A DNA stretch of 35,565 bases from Thermoleophilaceae bacterium (lineage in GTDB: Bacteria > Actinomycetota > Thermoleophilia > Solirubrobacterales > Thermoleophilaceae): NCBI GenBank assembly GCA_013813135.1, contig JACCSF010000188.1, forward strand, positions 1 to 35,565, given 5' to 3'. The translations under genes were made by a program, and so were the position numbers. Each line of letters starts with the position of its first letter. The stretch's first letter is position 1. Positions 9,639 through 33,902 of this stretch are shown piece after piece. Under the pieces are notes generated by a model, which was given only the letters and a program-made list of their open reading frames with translations, was not told the origin of the DNA and did no database searches.

Positions 9639-12600
9639 GCGGGCCTCTCGGCCCCATCGGGCGATGCTTCGCGCGCGAAGCGGCTGTTGGCCCCGGCATG
9701 CAGCTCCTGCAGCGACACCACCTCGGTGTCGCCGCTGCGGCTCGCGCGGATCGCCCGCTGCGCCGCGCTGGCGCCCGACAACGTGGTGATGCAGGGAATG
9801 CCGCGCGCCACGGCGGCGCGGCGGATCTCATAGCCGTCGGCGCGCGCGCCGGAGCCGGTCGGGGTGTTGATCACCAGGTCGACCTCGCCCGACTCGATCC
9901 GGTCGACCACGTTGGGCGAGCCCTCGGAGACCTTGCTGAGGCGCTCCACCGGCACGCCCATGCGCCGGATCGCCTGCGCCGTGCCGCCCGTGGCCAGCAC
10001 GCGGAAGCCCATGTCGTGGAAGGCGCCGGCGATCTGCGTGGCGGCCGGCTTGTCGCCGTCCGTGACGCTGATGAACACCGATCCGGATCGAGGGAGCTCA
10101 GCCCCCGCCGCCGCCTGCGCCTTGCCGAACGCGGTGGGGTAGTCGGCCGCCACGCCCATCACCTCCCCCGTCGACTTCATCTCCGGGCTGAGCAGCGAGT
10201 CGGCGCCGGGGAACCGCCCGAACGGAAGCACCGCCTCCTTGACGGACACGTGGCGCGGAGCTCGCGGGATATCCAGCGGCATCTCGGCCAACCGCTCGCC
10301 CAGCATCAGCCGGCAGGCGATCTTGGCGAGCGGGACCCCGATCGCCTTGGACACGAACGGCACTGTGCGCGAGGCGCGCGGGTTGGCCTCGATTACGTAC
10401 AGCTCCTCGTCGCCGTAGACGGCGAACTGGATGTTGATCAGGCCGATCACGCCGAGCCGCAGCGCGATCGCCTCCGTCGCGCGCTCGACCTGGCTCAGCA
10501 TCTCCGGGCCAAGCGACATCGCCGGGATCACGCAGGCCGAGTCGCCCGAGTGCACGCCCGCCTCCTCGACGTGCTGCATGATCGCCCCGATGCGGACCCG
10601 CTCGCCGTCGCAGAGAGCGTCGACGTCGATCTCGATGGCGTTCTCGAGAAAGCGGTCGAGGAAGATCGTGGTGCCCGCCCCGCCGTTCGTGCGCTCCAGG
10701 TAGTCGGCCAGCCCGTCGCTCGAGTAGCAGATCTCCATGGCGCGCCCGCCGAGCACGTAGCTCGGGCGCACCAGCAGCGGGTACCCCACCCCGCCGGCGA
10801 CCTCGAGCGCCGCGGCGGCGGACTCCGCGGTCGCGTACGGCGGTCCCTTCAGCCCCAGTTCGTCCAGCAGCCCGCCGAAGCTGGGCCGGTCCTCGGCCAG
10901 GTGGATCGACTCCACCGGCGTGCCCAGCAGCGGCACGCCGGCCTTCGCCAGGCCGGCCGCGAGCTTGAGCGGCGTCTGCCCGCCGAACTGAACGATCACG
11001 CCCTCGGGGTGCTCCACTTCGATCACCGCGAGCACGTCGGACAGGGTGAGCGGCTCGAAGTAGAGCCGGTCCGAGGTGTCGTAGTCGGTGGAGACCGTCT
11101 CCGGGTTGCAGTTGATCATCACCGCGTCACGGCCGGAGCCGCGCACGGTCATGGCGGCGTGCACGCAGCAGTAGTCGAACTCGATTCCCTGCCCGATCCG
11201 GTTCGGGCCCGAGCCGAGGATCACCACGCTCGGCCGGTCGCCGCGCCGGACCTCGTGGAGGGCGCGGCGCTCCCAGCCCGAGTAGAAGTACGGCGTCTCG
11301 GCCTCGAACTCGGCGGCGCAGGTGTCGACCGACTTGAACGAGCGCTCCAGCCCCGCCTCGGGGTCCTCGCCGCGGGCGAGCGCCGCGATCTCCGCCACGA
11401 ACCACGGGTCGATGGCGGTGCGGGCGCGCACCTCGGCCTCCGTGTGCCCGCGCCGGATGGCCTCGAAGACCAGCTCGTAGCGGTCGTGTGATGGCGTCTC
11501 GAGCCGCTCCAGCAGGTCGCCGTCCAAGCCCGCCTCAACGTCGAGCTCCCGCGAGCGCATCGCCTTCACGAACGCCTGCTTGAAGGTGCGCCCGATCGAC
11601 ATCGCCTCCCCCACCGACTGCATCGAGGTGTGGAGCGCGCCGCTGGCCCCAGGGAACTTCTCGAAGGCGAAGCGCGGCCACTTCACCACCACGTAGTCGA
11701 TCGCGGGCTCGAACGATGCGGGCGTCTTGCGGGTGATGTCGTTGTCGATCTCCTCGAGCGCGTAGCCCACGGCCAGCCGCGCGGCGATCTTGGCGATCGG
11801 GAAGCCGGTGGCCTTCGACGCGAGCGCGGACGAGCGCGACACGCGCGGGTTCATCTCGATCACCACGATCTCGTCGGTCTCCGGGTCGACCGCGAACTGG
11901 ATGTTCGACCCCCCGGTCTCCACCCCCACCGCTCGGATCACGGCGAGCGCCTGGTCGCGCAGCCGCTGGTACTGGACGTCGGTCAGTGTCTGCTGCGGCG
12001 CCACCGTGACGCTGTCGCCGGTGTGCACGCCCATCGGGTCGATGTTCTCGATCGAGCAGACGATCACGACGTTGTCGGCGCGGTCGCGCATCACCTCCAG
12101 CTCGAACTCGCCCCAGCCGATCACCGACTCCTCAACCAGCACCTGGCCGATCGGGCTGGCGGCCAGGCCCTCGGCGACCACCTGGCGGTACTCGATCTCC
12201 GTGCGCGCGGTGCCGCCGCCGGCGCCGCCCATGGTGAAGCCGGGCCGCACGATCGCGGGCAGGCCGATCTCGGGCAGGACCCGCTCGGCCTCTCGCATCG
12301 ACTTGACCGCCGCGCTGCGCGGCACGCGCAGGCCGGCGCGCTCCATGGTGGCGCGGAACAGCTCGCGGTCCTCGGCGCGGCGGATCGCCTCGTAGTCGGC
12401 GCCGATCAGCTCCACCCGATGCTTCGCCAGCGTGCCGTCCTCCGATAGCTGGCGGGCCAGGTCGAGGGCGGTCCCGCCGCCGAGCGTCGGCAGCATCGCG
12501 TCGGGCTTCTCGCGCTCGATCACCTTCGTCACCGACGCTGGGGTCAGCGGCTCGATGTAGGTGGCCGTGGCGAACTCGGGGTCGGTCATGATCGTCGCCG

Positions 12601-22630: not shown

Positions 22631-23614
22631 TTACCCGGTTTGCTTGTCCATCTTGCGTGTGTCTCGGGGCTCGACGAACGGCTCTTCGCCTTCGGGATGA
22701 CCCGCTTCGATCGCCCGTCCGCGCTCGAGCTCGGCGTTGAACTCGGCACCCAGCAGGACCATGATGTTCGAGATCCATAGCCAGACCAAGAACACGATCG
22801 GCCCCGCGAGCGCGCCGTAGGTCTTGTTGTAGGAGCCGAAGTTCGCGACGTAGAAGGCGAACGCCAGCGACGCGATCACCCAGCCGATCACGGCCAGTAC
22901 CCCGCCGGGACTGACCCAGCGGAACTTGGGGTGCTTGACGTTGGGCGCCGCCCAGTAGAGCAGCGCGAACATGAAGCTCACGATCAAGAGCAGCACCGGC
23001 CACTTGGCGATGTTCCAGATCGTGATCGCGGTTTCGCTGAGGCCGAGCACTCCGCCGGCCTGCTTGGCGAGGCCGCCGGTCAGCGTGACCGCCACGGCGC
23101 TGATCGCGAGCAGAACGAGGAGGACGAGCGTCAGCACCACGCGCGTGGGCAGCGTCTTCCAGATCGGACGGCCTTCCTCGATGTCGTAGATCGAGTTGGA
23201 CGCGCGCATGAAGGCGGCCACATATCCGGAGGCCGACCACAGCGCTCCCGCCAGACCGACGATGAAGAAGACACCGGCCGCACCCTTCGAGCCCTGCAGA
23301 TTCTTGATTGCGCTGGTGAAGATCTCCTTCGCCGGTCCCGGCGCTACCTTGCCCAGGTTGTCGATCAGCGGCTGGGTGGCCGAGTTGCCGATCAGGCCGA
23401 GCACCGAGACCAGCACGATGAGCGCCGGGAAGATCGCCAGGACCCCGTAGTAGGTCAGCGCGGCCGCCCAATCGGTGAGGTTGTCCTCCTTGAACTCGGT
23501 GACCGTGCGCTTGAGCACCGACCACCAGGAGCCGGCCTTCAGATCGGTCGGTGTCACCGGCGGGCGTTCCCCGCTCCCGCCGGCCGCCGCCTGGGCTTCT
23601 TCTCGTCGTGCCAT
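22631..23614 (-). CDS. YihY/virulence factor BrkB family membrane protein
   Basis: DNLTDWAAALTYYGVLAIFPALIVLVSVLGL; SASGYVAAFMRASNSIYDIEEGRPIWKTLPTR. Confidence 0.93.
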   Translation of the reverse strand: MARREEAQAAAGGSGERPPVTPTDLKAGSWWSVLKRTVTEFKEDNLTDWAAALTYYGVLAIFPALIVLVSVLGLIGNSATQPLIDNLGKVAPGPAKEIFTSAIKNLQGSKGAAGVFFIVGLAGALWSASGYVAAFMRASNSIYDIEEGRPIWKTLPTRVVLTLVLLVLLAISAVAVTLTGGLAKQAGGVLGLSETAITIWNIAKWPVLLLIVSFMFALLYWAAPNVKHPKFRWVSPGGVLAVIGWVIASLAFAFYVANFGSYNKTYGALAGPIVFLVWLWISNIMVLLGAEFNAELERGRAIEAGHPEGEEPFVEPRDTRKMDKQTG

Positions 23615-23928: not shown

Positions 23929-24462
23929 TTAGGACCCAGCTCGAGCCGCCGACCCGGGGCCGGCGCTCGGCTTCGTCTCTTCGACCTTTTGCTGAGCGCT
24001 GTCACGCAGCTCCTCAGCCTGCTTCTCGCCGCTTTGCTGCGCGGTTTCCTTGGCGCTCTGGGCGGCTTCCTGGGCCACCTCTTTGCCTCGGTCGAGAGCC
24101 TCCTGGCCGGTCTCCTTCACGCGTTCCTTGACCTCGTCAGCCATCGGACCGACTTTCTCGTCCTCGACGCGCGTCGACGGCAAGAGCATCCCTGCCACGA
24201 AGCCGACTGCGACGGAGCCGAGCGCCAGCCCGATCGGGTTCTCCTGCGCCACCCCCGCGGCGCGCTTCGCGCCCTGGTTCACCTGGCCGGCATCGGGCGT
24301 CGCACCGCTGATTCGCTCCTTCACCTGGTCCCGCTTGGCGGCGATGCTCTCCTTGGTGCGCGTCTTGACGTCGGCCTGGTGACCGAGCGCCTCGACGGTC
24401 TCCCCCATCTCGCCGCGGGTCTGCTCTATTTCCTCGCGGATTTCGCTCGGGTCTTTGCCCAC
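23929..24462 (-). CDS. DUF3618 domain-containing protein
   Basis: MGKDPSEIREEIEQTRGEMGETVEALGHQADVKTRTKESIAAKRDQVKERI, single TM GLALGSVAVGFVAGMLL. Confidence 0.88.
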   Translation of the reverse strand: MGKDPSEIREEIEQTRGEMGETVEALGHQADVKTRTKESIAAKRDQVKERISGATPDAGQVNQGAKRAAGVAQENPIGLALGSVAVGFVAGMLLPSTRVEDEKVGPMADEVKERVKETGQEALDRGKEVAQEAAQSAKETAQQSGEKQAEELRDSAQQKVEETKPSAGPGSAARAGS

Positions 24463-24836
24463 TGGACGTCCTCCTTCGTGCTCTGGATGGCCTGTTCAGG
24501 CGCTGGCGGGGTTGCCTCCTGAGCCTTGCTCCTGCCAGCCAGCGCCAGCGCTCCGGCGATTGCTGCGTACGCCACGGCCACGATCAAAGCCGCGAGCCAG
24601 AGGCCCATCCCGGTGGCGAGTGCGGCGATCAAGCAGGCGGTCAGTGCACCCAGGGCAAGCAGGCCGACAAGTCCAGCTCCCCCGAACATGCCTGCACCGA
24701 GGCCGGCCTTCTTGCCCTTCTCGGCCATCTCGGCCTTGGCCAGCTCCAGCTCCTGTCGGACGAGCGTGGTCGTCTGGTTCGACAGCTCCTTGAGCAGCTC
24801 GCCGACCGGGCGCTCGTGCAGATCGCTGTCTGACAT
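24426..24836 (-). CDS. Holin-like family protein (Phage_holin_3_6 / DUF1469 type)
   Basis: VGELLKELSNQTTTLVRQELELAKAEMAEKGKKAGLGAGMFGGAGLVGLLALGALTACLIAALATGMGLWLAALIVAVAY. Confidence 0.88.
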   Translation of the reverse strand: MSDSDLHERPVGELLKELSNQTTTLVRQELELAKAEMAEKGKKAGLGAGMFGGAGLVGLLALGALTACLIAALATGMGLWLAALIVAVAYAAIAGALALAGRSKAQEATPPAPEQAIQSTKEDVQWAKTRAKSARK

Positions 24837-24838
24837 CG

Positions 24839-25330
24839 CTACACCCCCTCGGAAGCGGGTCGCTGACCCGCGAACGTCTCGTGGCGCTGGCTCTCGTAGC
24901 GGCGGCTCTCGTAACGCTCCTGGCTCGAAGCCTTCAAGAACCTCGAGGCCACGAAACCGAGCGCAAGGCCTCCGGCGACGATGGCCCAGGGTTGCTTGCG
25001 TCCGAAGTCCTCGAGGTCGCGCAAGATGCGGTCGGCATCAGACTCCTGCAGGTAGCGGCCGAGTCGCTCGGCGCGATGCGCTGCTTGATCGGCCAGCTGC
25101 GCGGGCTTGTCCTTGCCCTGCTTGCGTAGCTGCTCGCTGACCGTGCGGACGTCCTGCGCGGTTGATGCGACCTGCTCGCCCGCCTGCGTCGAGCGCTGAT
25201 CCACCTGCTCGCGCAGCCTGTCCTTCGCCTGCCCGGCCGCCTGCTGGGCCTTCTCCTGAGTTTGGCCAGCGACCTCTTGGACCTTGTCCTTAGCCTGGTC
25301 GGACGGTCTTGTCGATGTCGCGTCCTTCAT
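24839..25330 (-). CDS. LEA/DUF883-like membrane-tethered helical protein
   Basis: Repeated KA.QAA.QAKD amphipathic helix then RKQPWAIVAGGLALGFVASRFLK membrane anchor. Confidence 0.75.
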   Translation of the reverse strand: MKDATSTRPSDQAKDKVQEVAGQTQEKAQQAAGQAKDRLREQVDQRSTQAGEQVASTAQDVRTVSEQLRKQGKDKPAQLADQAAHRAERLGRYLQESDADRILRDLEDFGRKQPWAIVAGGLALGFVASRFLKASSQERYESRRYESQRHETFAGQRPASEGV

Positions 25331-25857
25331 TCGAGGTCCCCCTTGCTCTCGGTCGATCCAGTGGCCCTTGCGGGGTCAGTTCCAGCGTCCCTCGCTTGGC
25401 CGGTCTGCGGTTCCTCGGCGCGGCCCCGAGTCACAGCGGCCTGCGAACTCGGCTCGCGCTGGTCGTCAACGAAGGCTTGGCCCTTTGGTTCATTGGCTGC
25501 GGCAGACCGTCGCCGCTTTAGGACGGCGAGCCCGGCAGCCCCAGCCGTCAGGGCGAGCGCGACCGGACCCTTCTTCGATCGCCCGAAGTTTCGCGAAGAG
25601 ATCAGGCCGGCGGCCGCCGCCACGAGCCCCGCTAGCCGCCCCTCCGGTTGTCGGCGCCGGCCGATGCTCGCCAGGCCACCGCTTCGGGCGCGCGAGTGGC
25701 GTCGAGCTGGCGTGAACGCCCTCCGAGAGGGTGTCGGCACCGAGCCCAAACCACGTGCCTTGGAAGCACGCGAACTCCGGCTCCGACGGCTTGCCACACC
25801 CTTAGGTCGCGTTTGGTCCCTCACCGTTCGCCACCCGCTGCCACTGAGAGCCGCCAA
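25327..25857 (-). CDS. Hypothetical protein; true start probably well inside the ORF
   Basis: C-terminal half has a plausible hydrophobic segment (GPVALALTAGAAGLAVLKRRRS); Arg/Ser-rich N-terminus looks non-coding. Confidence 0.4.
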   Translation of the reverse strand: MAALSGSGWRTVRDQTRPKGVASRRSRSSRASKARGLGSVPTPSRRAFTPARRHSRARSGGLASIGRRRQPEGRLAGLVAAAAGLISSRNFGRSKKGPVALALTAGAAGLAVLKRRRSAAANEPKGQAFVDDQREPSSQAAVTRGRAEEPQTGQARDAGTDPARATGSTESKGDLE

Positions 25858-25890: not shown

Positions 25891-26622
25891 TCAGTCATCC
25901 TCGACCTCGATCTGCTCCTTGCGCACCTGCTCGGAGACCTGCTGCTCCTCGACGTCGACGTCCTTCCCGAGCCGCACGCGTTCCTTTGGCACCGCCCGCT
26001 TCTCAACCACCGGCTCCTCCTCGTGCAGCACCACCTCGTGCTCGGACTCCGAGATGTCCGGGCCGCTGGTTGCCTCGTCAACCTTCTCGTCGGTGATCGG
26101 CTCGCGCTCGATCCGCGCCTTCTCGCGCCGGACGGGCACCTTCTGCTGGACCTCCTCGGTGACCACGTATTTGCGCAGACGCACCCGGCCCTTCTCCCGC
26201 TCCGTCTTGCCGACTCGCAGCTCCTCCTCTGACCGAGTCATCGCGTCGTCGCCGCTGACGCTGTCCGTGCGATCGCCTTCCTGCAGCCCCGAGCCGGAAC
26301 CCGGATCGGAGTAGTCGAGCCCATAATGGTCGTAGAGCTCTGCCTCCTCCGATTGTGAGAGCTCGCCGTTCGGGTCGATCTTCGGCGCGTCTGTGACCTG
26401 GTTTTTTGCGAACGCGACACGCACGTCTTCGCCGGCCGGTTGCGCATCCGAAAGCGGAACGAAGTTCGACTTCATCCCGAACAGCCCTGTGTTGACCAGC
26501 GCCCACTCGGGCCTGCCGGTTTGCCGATCGAGATAGACCTCCTCAAGCGTGCCGATCTTCTCCTCGTCGCGACCGACGACTGTCCGCCCGCGCCACTCGT
26601 ATGCCTCAGTTACCTGTATCAC
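25891..26622 (-). CDS. PRC-barrel + DUF2382 protein
   Basis: GRTVVGRDEEKIGTLEEVYLDRQTGRPEWALVNTGLFGMKSNFVPL (PRC-barrel), then LRKYVVTEEVQQKVPVRREKARIEREPI (DUF2382). GTG at 26622 with AGGAGG 5 nt upstream preferred over 26763. Confidence 0.88.
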   Translation of the reverse strand: MIQVTEAYEWRGRTVVGRDEEKIGTLEEVYLDRQTGRPEWALVNTGLFGMKSNFVPLSDAQPAGEDVRVAFAKNQVTDAPKIDPNGELSQSEEAELYDHYGLDYSDPGSGSGLQEGDRTDSVSGDDAMTRSEEELRVGKTEREKGRVRLRKYVVTEEVQQKVPVRREKARIEREPITDEKVDEATSGPDISESEHEVVLHEEEPVVEKRAVPKERVRLGKDVDVEEQQVSEQVRKEQIEVEDD

Positions 26623-26792
26623 CCGCTCCTCCTGCGGTTCGCGCTGCTCTTCGTATTCCGTGCCCTGACCGGGTTGATCGAAATCCGCGCACCCTGCTCT
26701 CGTCACGTAAGTGGGACCTAATGTCCGGGGCAGGTTGTTCCAGTTCGCGTAGGCGGGCGCCATGATGTTGGTGCACCGATGGCTTCATCGCC

Positions 26793-28190
26793 GTGAGTCC
26801 GAAGAAACAGACAGAGCTACGCCGGGCCGACGCGCTTCGAAACCGCGAGCGCATCCTCGACGCGGCCGAGCGGATGCTTGAGCGGTCGCCGTCTGCCAGC
26901 CTTGCCGACATCGCCGCAGCCGCCGGTGTCGCGCGGTCCACGCTCCACCGCCGCTTCCGCACGCGCGATGAGCTCCTCGCCGCGGTGCGCGACCGGCCAC
27001 ACGAGCAGAGTCAGGAAAGCTCTCTACGCTCGCTTCCGGCGGGGCGCCTGGGTCGCGGGCGACCGATCAGCCTCGATGCGATCCAGGTCTTCGACGTCGT
27101 GCCTCCAGCCGTGCTACCTGAGCAGCTTGTCGCCGAGGCGCAGCGGATCGCCAAAGTGCCGGTCGCGCTGTACGTGCTCGACATCGATGGAACGCACCTA
27201 CTGCACATGGCCGGACCGCATCGGCTTGGGCAAACGATCGAGGCTCCGTTGGCGATCGGTCCCGAGCTCGACGCCGACGGGCTCTCACAGCTGCGCGAGC
27301 AACTCGCCGTGCGCCGCGGCATCGAGATCTCCGCCCTGTGGCTGCGCGGACGAGCAAACGGCGTGATGATCGCCTTCGGCCGCCCGGCCGAGCCGCTCAC
27401 CGAGCTAGCCCGCCAGGCCGCCGCGGCGGTCACCCTCGCGGATCGCTACACCGACGCCTTCGCCACAGCGCAACGCCGCAAACAGCCGAAGGCCGCTGCC
27501 GAGATCCAGCAGAGCCTGCTGCCCCCACGAATCGTCCGTGTCACCGGTGGGGAGATCGCCGGAAATGTACTTCCAAGCTACGAAGTCGCCGGCGACTGGT
27601 TCGACGTGATCGAGAACGCCGACGGTATCTGGATCACCGTCGCCGACGGGCTCGGAGGCTCGACCCGGGCAGCGGCCAGCAGCGCCGTAGCGCTCGGTGC
27701 CCTACGAGCCAGCCGGCGTAGCGGAGCCGGCATCAGCGAAGCCCTCATCGTGATGCACCAGACGCTTCGGGAGATGCCGGGGCCGCGCGCGGAGATGACG
27801 GCGGTCGCCGCGCGCTGGGACCCCGCCACGAACGAGCTCAGCGTCGCGAATTGCGGTCATGTCGCGCCCGTGATCCTGCGCGGCGACGCTGATGTCGAGC
27901 ACGTCCGCGGTCCCCACGCGCACGGGCTCGGGGGACGGGCCAGCCCCAAGCCCGTCGAACGGTCGACCTCGCTCGCGCCCGGCGACCGCCTCGTGATCGT
28001 GTCCGACGGCGTGATCAAGTCCGGCCAGGGCAAGGCCGGCCTCGGCGTCGAGGGGCTCGTTCGAGCTGCGCTTCGATCCGAGCGCGAGACCGCCGCCGAC
28101 ACCGTCCGAGAGGTCCATAAGGCCGTCCTGGACTCAGCCGGAGGACAGCTCTCGGACGACGCGACGGCCGTCTGCCTGTCCGTCGAGTAA
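26793..28190 (+). CDS. TetR-type HTH / GAF-like / SpoIIE (PP2C) phosphatase fusion
   Basis: N-term NRERILDAAERMLERSPSASLADIAAAAGVARSTLHRRFRTRDELLAAV; C-term LLPPRI...EVAGDWFDVIENADGIWITVADGLGG...VANCGHVAPVIL...GDRLVIVSDGVI...LSDDATAVCL. Confidence 0.88.
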   Translation: MSPKKQTELRRADALRNRERILDAAERMLERSPSASLADIAAAAGVARSTLHRRFRTRDELLAAVRDRPHEQSQESSLRSLPAGRLGRGRPISLDAIQVFDVVPPAVLPEQLVAEAQRIAKVPVALYVLDIDGTHLLHMAGPHRLGQTIEAPLAIGPELDADGLSQLREQLAVRRGIEISALWLRGRANGVMIAFGRPAEPLTELARQAAAAVTLADRYTDAFATAQRRKQPKAAAEIQQSLLPPRIVRVTGGEIAGNVLPSYEVAGDWFDVIENADGIWITVADGLGGSTRAAASSAVALGALRASRRSGAGISEALIVMHQTLREMPGPRAEMTAVAARWDPATNELSVANCGHVAPVILRGDADVEHVRGPHAHGLGGRASPKPVERSTSLAPGDRLVIVSDGVIKSGQGKAGLGVEGLVRAALRSERETAADTVREVHKAVLDSAGGQLSDDATAVCLSVE

Positions 28191-28612: not shown

Positions 28613-28733
28613 TCTAGGTCGCAAATCGGTCGCAAGCCGCGTTTTGAGCGCTGCCCTCCCCGGTCGCAGCGGGCGGTGCCTGCGGCTCTACAATGCCGTT
28701 CGCAGTACCACTCGCGCCCGTAGCTCAGTGGAT
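28613..28733 (+). repeat. tRNA-Arg promoter region + 5' end; counterpart of 21348-21467
   Basis: See 21348-21467; conserved -10-like CTCTACAA(T). Confidence 0.85.
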
Positions 28734-28786
28734 AGAGCGCTGCCCTCCGGAGGCAGAAGTCGCAGGTTCGAATCCTGCCGGGCGCG
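28714..28786 (+). tRNA. tRNA-Arg (anticodon CCG), CCA not encoded
   Basis: GCGCCCG/CGGGCGC acceptor stem, CTGCC-CTCCGGA-GGCAG anticodon arm, GCAGG-TTCGAAT-CCTGC T-arm. Confidence 0.97.
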
Positions 28787-28789
28787 TCG
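28744..28789 (+). repeat. 46-bp direct repeat, tRNA copy (attL-like)
   Basis: CCTCCGGAGGCAGAAGTCGCAGGTTCGAATCCTGCCGGGCGCGTCG. Confidence 0.9.
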
Positions 28790-32263: not shown

Positions 32264-32387
32264 ATCGAGCACCAGCGTAGAGCCGCTTTCGCTGCCGGAT
32301 GGCGAAAGGCCGCGGCAGGGACGATGATGGACCGAGAAGCCTGCTGGCACGGTGCCGGCCAGGAGTTCTGCGTGGTGGGGAGCCCAA

Positions 32388-33902
32388 ATGTCGCTGGTGG
32401 ACAACCTCCGGGAGATGGAGCGAACGCGGGAGGCGTACTGGCTGCGCCACCCGTCGACTTCCTCTACCAAGCTGCACTGGCGGGCCGTCACCGTTCGGCA
32501 CTGCTTTCACGTCCTGCCCGGCGAATCGATCCTCGAGATCGGTGCCGGCAGCGGCCTCTGGACAAAGCACCTGACGTCAGTCCTTCGAGGCGAGAACCCC
32601 GTGACCGCCGCCGCCTTCAACGCCGACCTGGCCGAGCAGGCAGCGGCGCAAGCGCTCGCGAACACAAGCGTTGCCCTGGTATCGCACCTCGACGCAGACC
32701 TCTCTCCCGGCAGCTTCGACTACGTCGTCGGGACCGCCATTCTCTGCCACGACAAGTACTCCGAGAACCTGAGGCAAATCCACCGGCTCCTCAAGCCCGG
32801 GGGACAGCTGCTGTTCTTCGAAGCCAACTATTGGAACCCACAGGTTCTGGTCAAGAGCGCCGTGCCCCCGCTGGGCCGCCGCGCGGGTAACGCGCGCTGT
32901 CAAATCGGCATGCGCAAGTACCGGCTGATGAAGGCAGCGTCGCACGAGGGGTTCACCGACATAGAGATCGTCCCCTACGACATCGTGCACCCACGCACCC
33001 CTCGGCGCATGGTTCCGGCCATCCAGGAAACCGCCTTCGTCCTGGAGCACGTCCCAGGACTTCGGGAGATCTGCGGCACGCTCTACATCTGGGCGAGGAA
33101 GCCGGCCGACGGGCCGGCCCGTCGGCCGAGCGTCAATCTCGCTCGTCATCACGAGCTTCGACAATCGACGTCCGTCGTCGTTCCCTGCCGCAACGAGGCG
33201 ATGAATGTGCCGCGCCTGGTGTCCGGATTGATGGACGCCTACGGCGACTACATCACCGAAATCATCATCGTCAACGATGACAGCGGGGACGCGACAGCGG
33301 CCGTGACCCGGAGCTTGGCCGCCGAGGATCCGCGGATCCGCCTCATCGATCGAACTCCTCCAGGAGGGGTCGGGCGAGCGCTCAGGGATGGCTACGACGC
33401 CGCGCGCGGGAAGTACATCCTGTCCATGGACTGCGACTTCCAGCTGATCGTTCCGGAGCTTCGCGATCTCTTCGACGTGGTTGCCGCGGGTCATGCGGGC
33501 GCCATCGGCAGTCGCTTCTCCCATGAGTCGGTCCTGATCAACTATCCGTTCGCCAAGATCATCGCCAACCGCGCGTTTCACCTGCTCGTACGGCTGGTCC
33601 TGCATCAACCGGTGCGCGACATCTCCAACAACCTGAAGCTGTACCGGGCGGAGATCCTCAAGGACCTCGATATCCGGCGGCCGGACTTCGGCGCCAACGC
33701 GGAGACGGGCCTCAAGCCAATCGCCGCGGGGCACGACATTCAGGAGGTCCCGATCTCCTGGATCAACCGGACCGACGACATGGGCGCCTCCAACTTCGGG
33801 ATCTTGAGGTTCGCGCCAAGCTATCTCCGCGCCTTGGCCGATCTCGTACGCGCCGTCCGAAGCGAGCCGGCTGAGCACGCGAAAGAGCGCGCTCGCCCAT
33901 GA
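32388..33902 (+). CDS. Fusion: SAM methyltransferase + family 2 glycosyltransferase (polyprenyl-phosphate-sugar synthase-like)
   Basis: N-term ILEIGAGSGLWTKHLTSVL; C-term SVVVPCRNEAMNVPRLVSGLMDAYGDYITEIIIVNDDSGDATAAVTRSLAAEDPRIRLIDRTPPGGVGRALRDGYDAARGKYILSMDCDFQ. Confidence 0.9.
   Translation: MSLVDNLREMERTREAYWLRHPSTSSTKLHWRAVTVRHCFHVLPGESILEIGAGSGLWTKHLTSVLRGENPVTAAAFNADLAEQAAAQALANTSVALVSHLDADLSPGSFDYVVGTAILCHDKYSENLRQIHRLLKPGGQLLFFEANYWNPQVLVKSAVPPLGRRAGNARCQIGMRKYRLMKAASHEGFTDIEIVPYDIVHPRTPRRMVPAIQETAFVLEHVPGLREICGTLYIWARKPADGPARRPSVNLARHHELRQSTSVVVPCRNEAMNVPRLVSGLMDAYGDYITEIIIVNDDSGDATAAVTRSLAAEDPRIRLIDRTPPGGVGRALRDGYDAARGKYILSMDCDFQLIVPELRDLFDVVAAGHAGAIGSRFSHESVLINYPFAKIIANRAFHLLVRLVLHQPVRDISNNLKLYRAEILKDLDIRRPDFGANAETGLKPIAAGHDIQEVPISWINRTDDMGASNFGILRFAPSYLRALADLVRAVRSEPAEHAKERARP

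Follow-up and report, generated by a model that had tools for sequence, protein, structure and literature searches.

We show that a gene from a Thermoleophilaceae bacterium (NCBI GenBank assembly GCA_013813135.1, contig JACCSF010000188.1) encodes a single protein in which, as judged from its sequence and structural model, a TetR-type DNA-binding head is combined with a GAF fold and with a phosphatase of the SpoIIE/PPM type. In the promoter region between this gene and a divergent gene cassette we identify a palindrome that is the best candidate for an operator of the TetR head. The fusion gene occupies positions 26793-28190 on the plus strand of the window, by which we mean the whole stretch of 35,565 nucleotides analyzed here. 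Our favored interpretation, which we regard as probable though well short of secure, is that its product is a bifunctional regulator that would bind its own divergent promoter and, through a GAF-controlled phosphatase, feed anti-anti-sigma partner switching.

As the initial annotation had proposed, the gene is a single uninterrupted reading frame with a GTG start, encoding 465 residues and a stop codon. The TetR and SpoIIE domains named in that annotation were both recovered above their curated cut-offs in a profile search: TetR_N (PF00440) at residues 21-65 (26853-26987, plus strand), with an E-value of 8.5e-10 and 38.7 bits against a cut-off of 24, and SpoIIE (PF07228) at residues 277-464, with an E-value of 6.3e-29. 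A full-length AlphaFold model based on 44 family members (mean pLDDT, the predicted local distance difference test score, 87.9) places the helix-turn-helix (HTH) helices at residues 3-66, followed by a poorly ordered linker at about 67-95, a compact alpha/beta domain at 96-216 (27078-27440, plus strand), a helical segment that ends in AAEIQQSLLPP, and the PPM phosphatase at 247-464 (27531-28184, plus strand). The linker, GAF and PPM regions thus come after the HTH, and the C-terminal all-helical ligand/dimerization domain of the TetR family is absent. Foldseek matched the PPM part to RsbU/SpoIIE-type enzymes (3pu9, Rv1364c 3ke6, RssB 3f79 and SiaA 6k4e; E-values of about 1e-11). The Pfam search of the window protein returned no match for its middle region. 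However, 11 of 31 family members reach the Pfam GAF profile PF01590 there (best E-value 1.6e-5), and the middle domain modeled alone (pLDDT 82.8) has the DevS GAF-B structures as its best Foldseek match (E-value 1.5e-4); these two lines of evidence are why we consider the region GAF-like, as first annotated.

A survey for the same architecture, suggested in the initial annotation, was carried out by scanning one genome per species and retained 80 loci, 54 of which carry the HTH. HTH, GAF and PPM are complete in one open frame in 49 of these 54, while the other five are cut at contig ends or frame-shifted.

Phosphatase domain and partner-switch genes

The window protein has the PPM fold, the SpoIIE profile and the metal-binding Asp residues of RsbU/SpoIIE-type phosphatases, and the phosphatase looks active from the conservation of its metal site. 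In the 44-member alignment, D268, D271 and D456 are present in all members, D285 and D455 in 43, and D405 in 41. The initial annotation had noted both that the acidic positions are kept and that the usual DVxGHG motif reads ADGLGGS. Both observations stand, but the departure from the motif is no defect: since the metal Asp D285 is retained, ADGLGGS is no sign of damage, and a damaged metal site was ruled out as a candidate explanation. It could be argued that the protein is a transcription factor only, in which the GAF and PPM domains sense and dimerize while the phosphatase, like that of RssB-type adaptors, is a pseudo-enzyme. This proposal draws on the replacement of D285 by Glu in one member (L059), on Asn at D405 in three, on the variability of the residue after D285 across the family (24 Ala, 7 Gly), and on the presence of RssB among the Foldseek matches. 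We nevertheless consider it unlikely, given that the metal residues are kept in 41 to 44 of the 44 members, including the window protein, and that partner-switch genes adjoin several members.

These neighboring genes also bear on the identity of the substrate. A profile search for STAS or HATPase_c_2 domains found no match on the contig of the window, bearing out the earlier remark that no RsbV/RsbW-like partner is encoded there. Elsewhere in the genome, matches above cut-off number 6 for STAS, 6 for SpoIIE and 10 for HATPase_c_2, alongside several SigB-like sigma genes. Among HTH-bearing relatives, STAS and RsbW genes directly follow the fusion in L064; a STAS gene follows it in L065, with RsbW further on; a STAS gene lies after it in L074 and, in the opposite orientation, in L061; and a STAS gene faces it in L057. 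In Solirubrobacter loci L024 and L026, which belong with the window protein to a well-supported seven-member clade, the fusion gene, a DUF2382 gene and a SigB-type sigma gene stand in series on one strand. STAS, STAS plus RsbW, or SigB-type sigma genes are likewise adjacent in the HTH-less relatives L076, L077, L083 and L087. The missing partner genes are a feature of the window locus and not of the family, and because STAS, RsbW and SigB-type sigma genes adjoin the fusion in several relatives, a STAS protein appears to be the likeliest substrate of the phosphatase. An alternative accepts both DNA binding and phosphatase activity but has the enzyme act on another phosphoprotein, for example one modified by a Hanks kinase, rather than on an anti-anti-sigma factor. 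The window locus would suit this alternative, as would most relatives, which have no STAS or RsbW gene within the fetched flank. We rate it as improbable, on a par with the transcription-factor proposal, in view of the adjacent genes in the seven HTH-bearing and four HTH-less loci listed above and of the fact that known RsbU/SpoIIE-type enzymes act on STAS proteins.

DNA-binding head and shared palindrome

The DNA-binding head looks used, as suggested by the recognition helix, in which R48, R53, F55 and R58 are invariant in the 44-member alignment, and by the mean pairwise identity of the HTH, which at 0.53 does not fall below the 0.48 of the enzyme. In addition, a common palindrome, AACTGGGACA-N3-TGTCCCAGTT, occurs in the divergent promoters, so that the palindromic operator in an own or divergent promoter that is typical of the TetR family is found here as a prediction. 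Counts of short words (k-mers) in the upstream regions revealed an excess of TGGGAC/GTCCCA, roughly six times the level in the remainder of the loci and restricted to some 400 bp on the upstream side of the HTH. Pairs of the half-site YGRRACA form an inward dyad with a 3-bp gap (YGRRACA-N3-TGTYYCR) in 21 of the 54 upstream regions; shuffled sequences gave 2.6 and control windows 0.4, and neither the outward nor the direct arrangement showed a comparable peak. A fitted palindromic model reads AACTGGGACANNNTGTCCCAGTT and reaches 12.4 bits, versus 7-8 for shuffled sets. When half of the loci were held out, 33-56% of the remainder exceeded the 99th percentile of shuffles, while control windows gave 0%. 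Leaving out one clade at a time, 30 of the 54 regions scored at p ≤ 0.05, among them five of the seven in the window's clade, and among 11 previously unused regions five did so, with three at 0 of 200 shuffles.

Within the window, a model trained without its clade finds the palindrome at 26721-26747 (ATGTCCGGGGCAGGTTGTTCCAGTTCG, 16.5 bits), with none of 300 shuffles as good, and a weaker, overlapping predicted site lies at 26707-26733 (GTAAGTGGGACCTAATGTCCGGGGCAG, 11.4 bits). These are the only sites above 8.5 bits in the 35.6 kb, and both fall between the two start codons. Outside the upstream regions, a single position in 1.04 million exceeds 15 bits: L074:4183-4209 (CCAACTGACACATGCTGTGTCAGTTGA), a nearly perfect palindrome between the fusion gene and the downstream STAS gene. 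A whole-genome pattern search allowing up to 3 mismatches returned 10 places, versus 3 for the reversed control, and therefore few extra regulon sites at most are expected. The degenerate dyad emerged only after the k-mer counts and motif fitting; exact palindromes with identical arms and gap common to the loci were not found above chance, scans for sigma-70 and terminator consensus sequences gave nothing above chance, and the upstream alignment hinted at a GGAAC-type promoter pattern that failed as a gapped pattern.

The HTH could instead be vestigial or serve to bind protein, with the palindrome acting as a promoter element or as the target of a different regulator. TGTTCCAGTTCG is common to close relatives and could be part of a promoter. 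However, conservation of the HTH matches that of the enzyme and its recognition-helix residues do not vary, inverted half-sites at a fixed 3-bp gap suit a dimeric repressor better than a promoter, and palindrome scores are low in HTH-less relatives, seven of eight falling below 6 bits and L087 reaching 10.2. We regard this explanation as unlikely, marginally more so than the two preceding ones, and retain 26721-26747 as the candidate operator.

In the recognition helix of the Patulibacter-type members L035, L045, L050 and L073, RSTLYRHF is replaced by RATAYRHF, and in L045, L050 and L073 the palindrome half-site is shifted (GTAACCGATAC / GGTTCC). It is possible that head and operator co-vary in these members.

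Origin of the fusion and its gene neighborhood

The initial annotation had recognized that a frameshift or an assembly join of two genes could produce such a protein; this is ruled out, and retains a negligible probability, because the fusion recurs in frame in dozens of independent assemblies. A search of 61 related genomes gave full-length copies at 82%, 63-65% and about 40-45% identity, and with a wider scan the latter two ranges became 63-70% and about 40-46%. Nothing in favor of an artifact was found; one relative (G003, L055) is itself broken by a frameshift. The relatives with the fusion fall within a single group of soil actinobacteria, the Solirubrobacterales/Thermoleophilia, with Solirubrobacter, Conexibacter, Patulibacter, Paraconexibacter and Thermoleophilaceae bins among them. 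Counted by rows, an HTH-covering match occurs in 23 of 299 Thermoleophilia genomes and a long form in 3 more, and among 297 genomes drawn from the phylum the sole HTH-covering match was the window's own, with none outside the class; TetR-SpoIIE fusions that arose separately may still exist. A quick-method tree built on 59 rows of the GAF-PPM core places the proteins with the HTH on one side of a branch with support 96, and therefore the fusion appears to have a single origin, after which it was long retained. Other proteins with the same core have no additional head (e.g., L071, L076 and L077) or a REC-GGDEF head, as in L079 (L017), where the core is joined to a response-regulator receiver and GGDEF in an open frame of 851 aa.

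The long form of about 700-737 aa (L039, L056, L058, L063 and L068) has a TetR_C-like stretch and a weak PAS match between HTH and GAF, and this TetR plus PAS form is one sub-clade of the core tree (support 99). The G003 long form (L055 / L008) is frameshifted or stops between HTH and GAF, and could be a pseudogene or a sequencing error.

The fusion gene faces a series of minus-strand genes. Nearest to it is a PRC-barrel plus DUF2382 gene (25891-26622), identified by Pfam; DUF2382 is single-copy in the genome according to a whole-genome search in which B. subtilis, which has DUF2382, served as a control. It is followed by a small gene with no Pfam match (25327-25857), a YqjD-like gene with an amphipathic repeat and a transmembrane segment (24839-25330), which was named by eye, has only a weak apolipoprotein-type Pfam match and has homologs adjoining several relatives, a Holin-X (Phage_holin_3_6) gene (24426-24836; PF07332, E-value 4.3e-38), a DUF3618 gene (23929-24462; PF12277, E-value 4e-13) and a YihY/BrkB membrane protein gene (22631-23614; PF03631, E-value 1.2e-72). 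Since these genes lie nearly end to end on one strand, we infer that they form one operon.

Neighborhoods were compared within the fetched flank of 53 HTH-bearing loci, one near-duplicate having been dropped, and the cassette was scored by any of its members or by a mechanosensitive-channel transmembrane-helix gene that replaces or joins it. A cassette member adjoins the fusion gene in 38 of the 53 loci; the nearest one is upstream on the opposite strand in 33, and within 600 bp of the HTH in 28. The cassette is found at one of nine HTH-less relatives and at none of 13 SpoIIE loci outside the family (12 of them from Streptomyces), and the difference between HTH-bearing and HTH-less loci gives a Fisher p of 0.0007, uncorrected for kinship. 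Together with the shared palindrome, these counts lend comparative support to the earlier suggestion that the facing DUF2382/DUF3618/YihY cluster may be the target of the fusion protein.

The window also carries a tRNA-Arg (ccg) gene downstream of the fusion gene (28713-28788, plus strand), a tRNA-Ser (cga) gene (10875-10964, plus strand) and a 516-aa open reading frame (32352-33902, plus strand) that, judged by its translation only, resembles a methyltransferase joined to a family-2-like glycosyltransferase.

Known relatives and proposed mechanism

The fusion shares with RsbU/RsbP/RsbZ/OsaC-type phosphatases the order of sensor domain, helical linker and PPM, the metal residues and, in some relatives, adjoining partner-switch genes; it differs from them in its N-terminal TetR HTH and predicted operator, and in that the window has no partner genes. 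The nearest solved sequence to its phosphatase domain is Rv1364c of Mycobacterium tuberculosis (3ke6; E-value 1e-11, or 5.7e-18 by profile), which combines sensor, phosphatase, kinase and STAS in one chain and has no HTH. With TetR repressors, of which LfrR (2v57) is the nearest solved, it shares the HTH by sequence (E-value 1.2e-9) and a palindrome in a divergent promoter, but GAF and PPM domains stand where those repressors have their all-helical domain. A further likeness is to Bacillus subtilis YsnF, whose gene we take to be the DUF2382 gene of that species, since the gene divergent from the fusion encodes PRC-DUF2382; we know of no TetR-phosphatase fusion in B. subtilis. DUF2382 fits a stress regulon, ysnF being classed among the SigB/general stress genes (PMC7824861, PMC5717166). 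RsbZ and OsaC carry GAF domains, and none of the phosphatases that a text search of the source turned up has a DNA-binding head (PMC12143880). The initial annotation knew of no described system of this form, and our literature search, which covered few subscription journals, likewise found no described TetR-SpoIIE/PPM fusion. As far as tested, all parts are known, while their combination and the predicted operator are new.

In the bifunctional regulator that we propose, the TetR head would bind, as a dimer, a palindrome of roughly 22 bp (two overlapping sites, 26707-26747) in the divergent promoter region, and would regulate, probably repress, both the fusion gene itself and the envelope-stress cassette opposite (PRC-DUF2382/Holin-X/DUF3618/YihY). 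On sensing a cue, the GAF domain would control the RsbU-type phosphatase through the helical segment, and the phosphatase would most likely dephosphorylate one or more STAS anti-anti-sigma proteins, freeing a SigB/F-type sigma factor. RsbU is activated by dimerization via a helical linker under sensor control, and the same has been proposed for GAF- and PAS-bearing relatives (PMC12143880). By analogy with RsbU, GAF-driven dimerization via the linker could bring the TetR heads together on the palindrome. A more tentative conjecture, which we hold to be possible but doubtful, is that the GAF domain and helical linker join the two functions allosterically, tying phosphatase activity to occupancy of the promoter, such that one signal would both release the promoter and turn on partner switching.

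Several observations weigh against the bifunctional-regulator model. The window has no partner gene, a convincing palindrome is missing in about half of the relatives, the palindrome seed was picked after all regions had been viewed, and 14 of the 53 HTH-bearing loci lack the cassette. Moreover, since the HTH arose once, its link to the cassette is a single retained event rather than many independent ones.

Partner-switch phosphatases are known as the input step by which a stress cue leads to release of a sigma factor, and members of the TetR family as simple repressors. A conserved fusion of single origin, whose predicted operator adjoins an envelope-stress cassette, would unite both logics in one molecule. 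With the predicted palindrome lying between the fusion gene and this membrane-stress cluster, a single protein may govern a neighboring promoter as well as a sigma-factor pathway. If true, the proposed coupling would connect one-component regulation directly with the general stress response. The fusion thus emerges as a testable case of a phosphatase with a transcription factor as input module, and as an entry point into the little-studied stress responses of the Solirubrobacterales and the role of DUF2382, DUF3618 and Holin-X genes.
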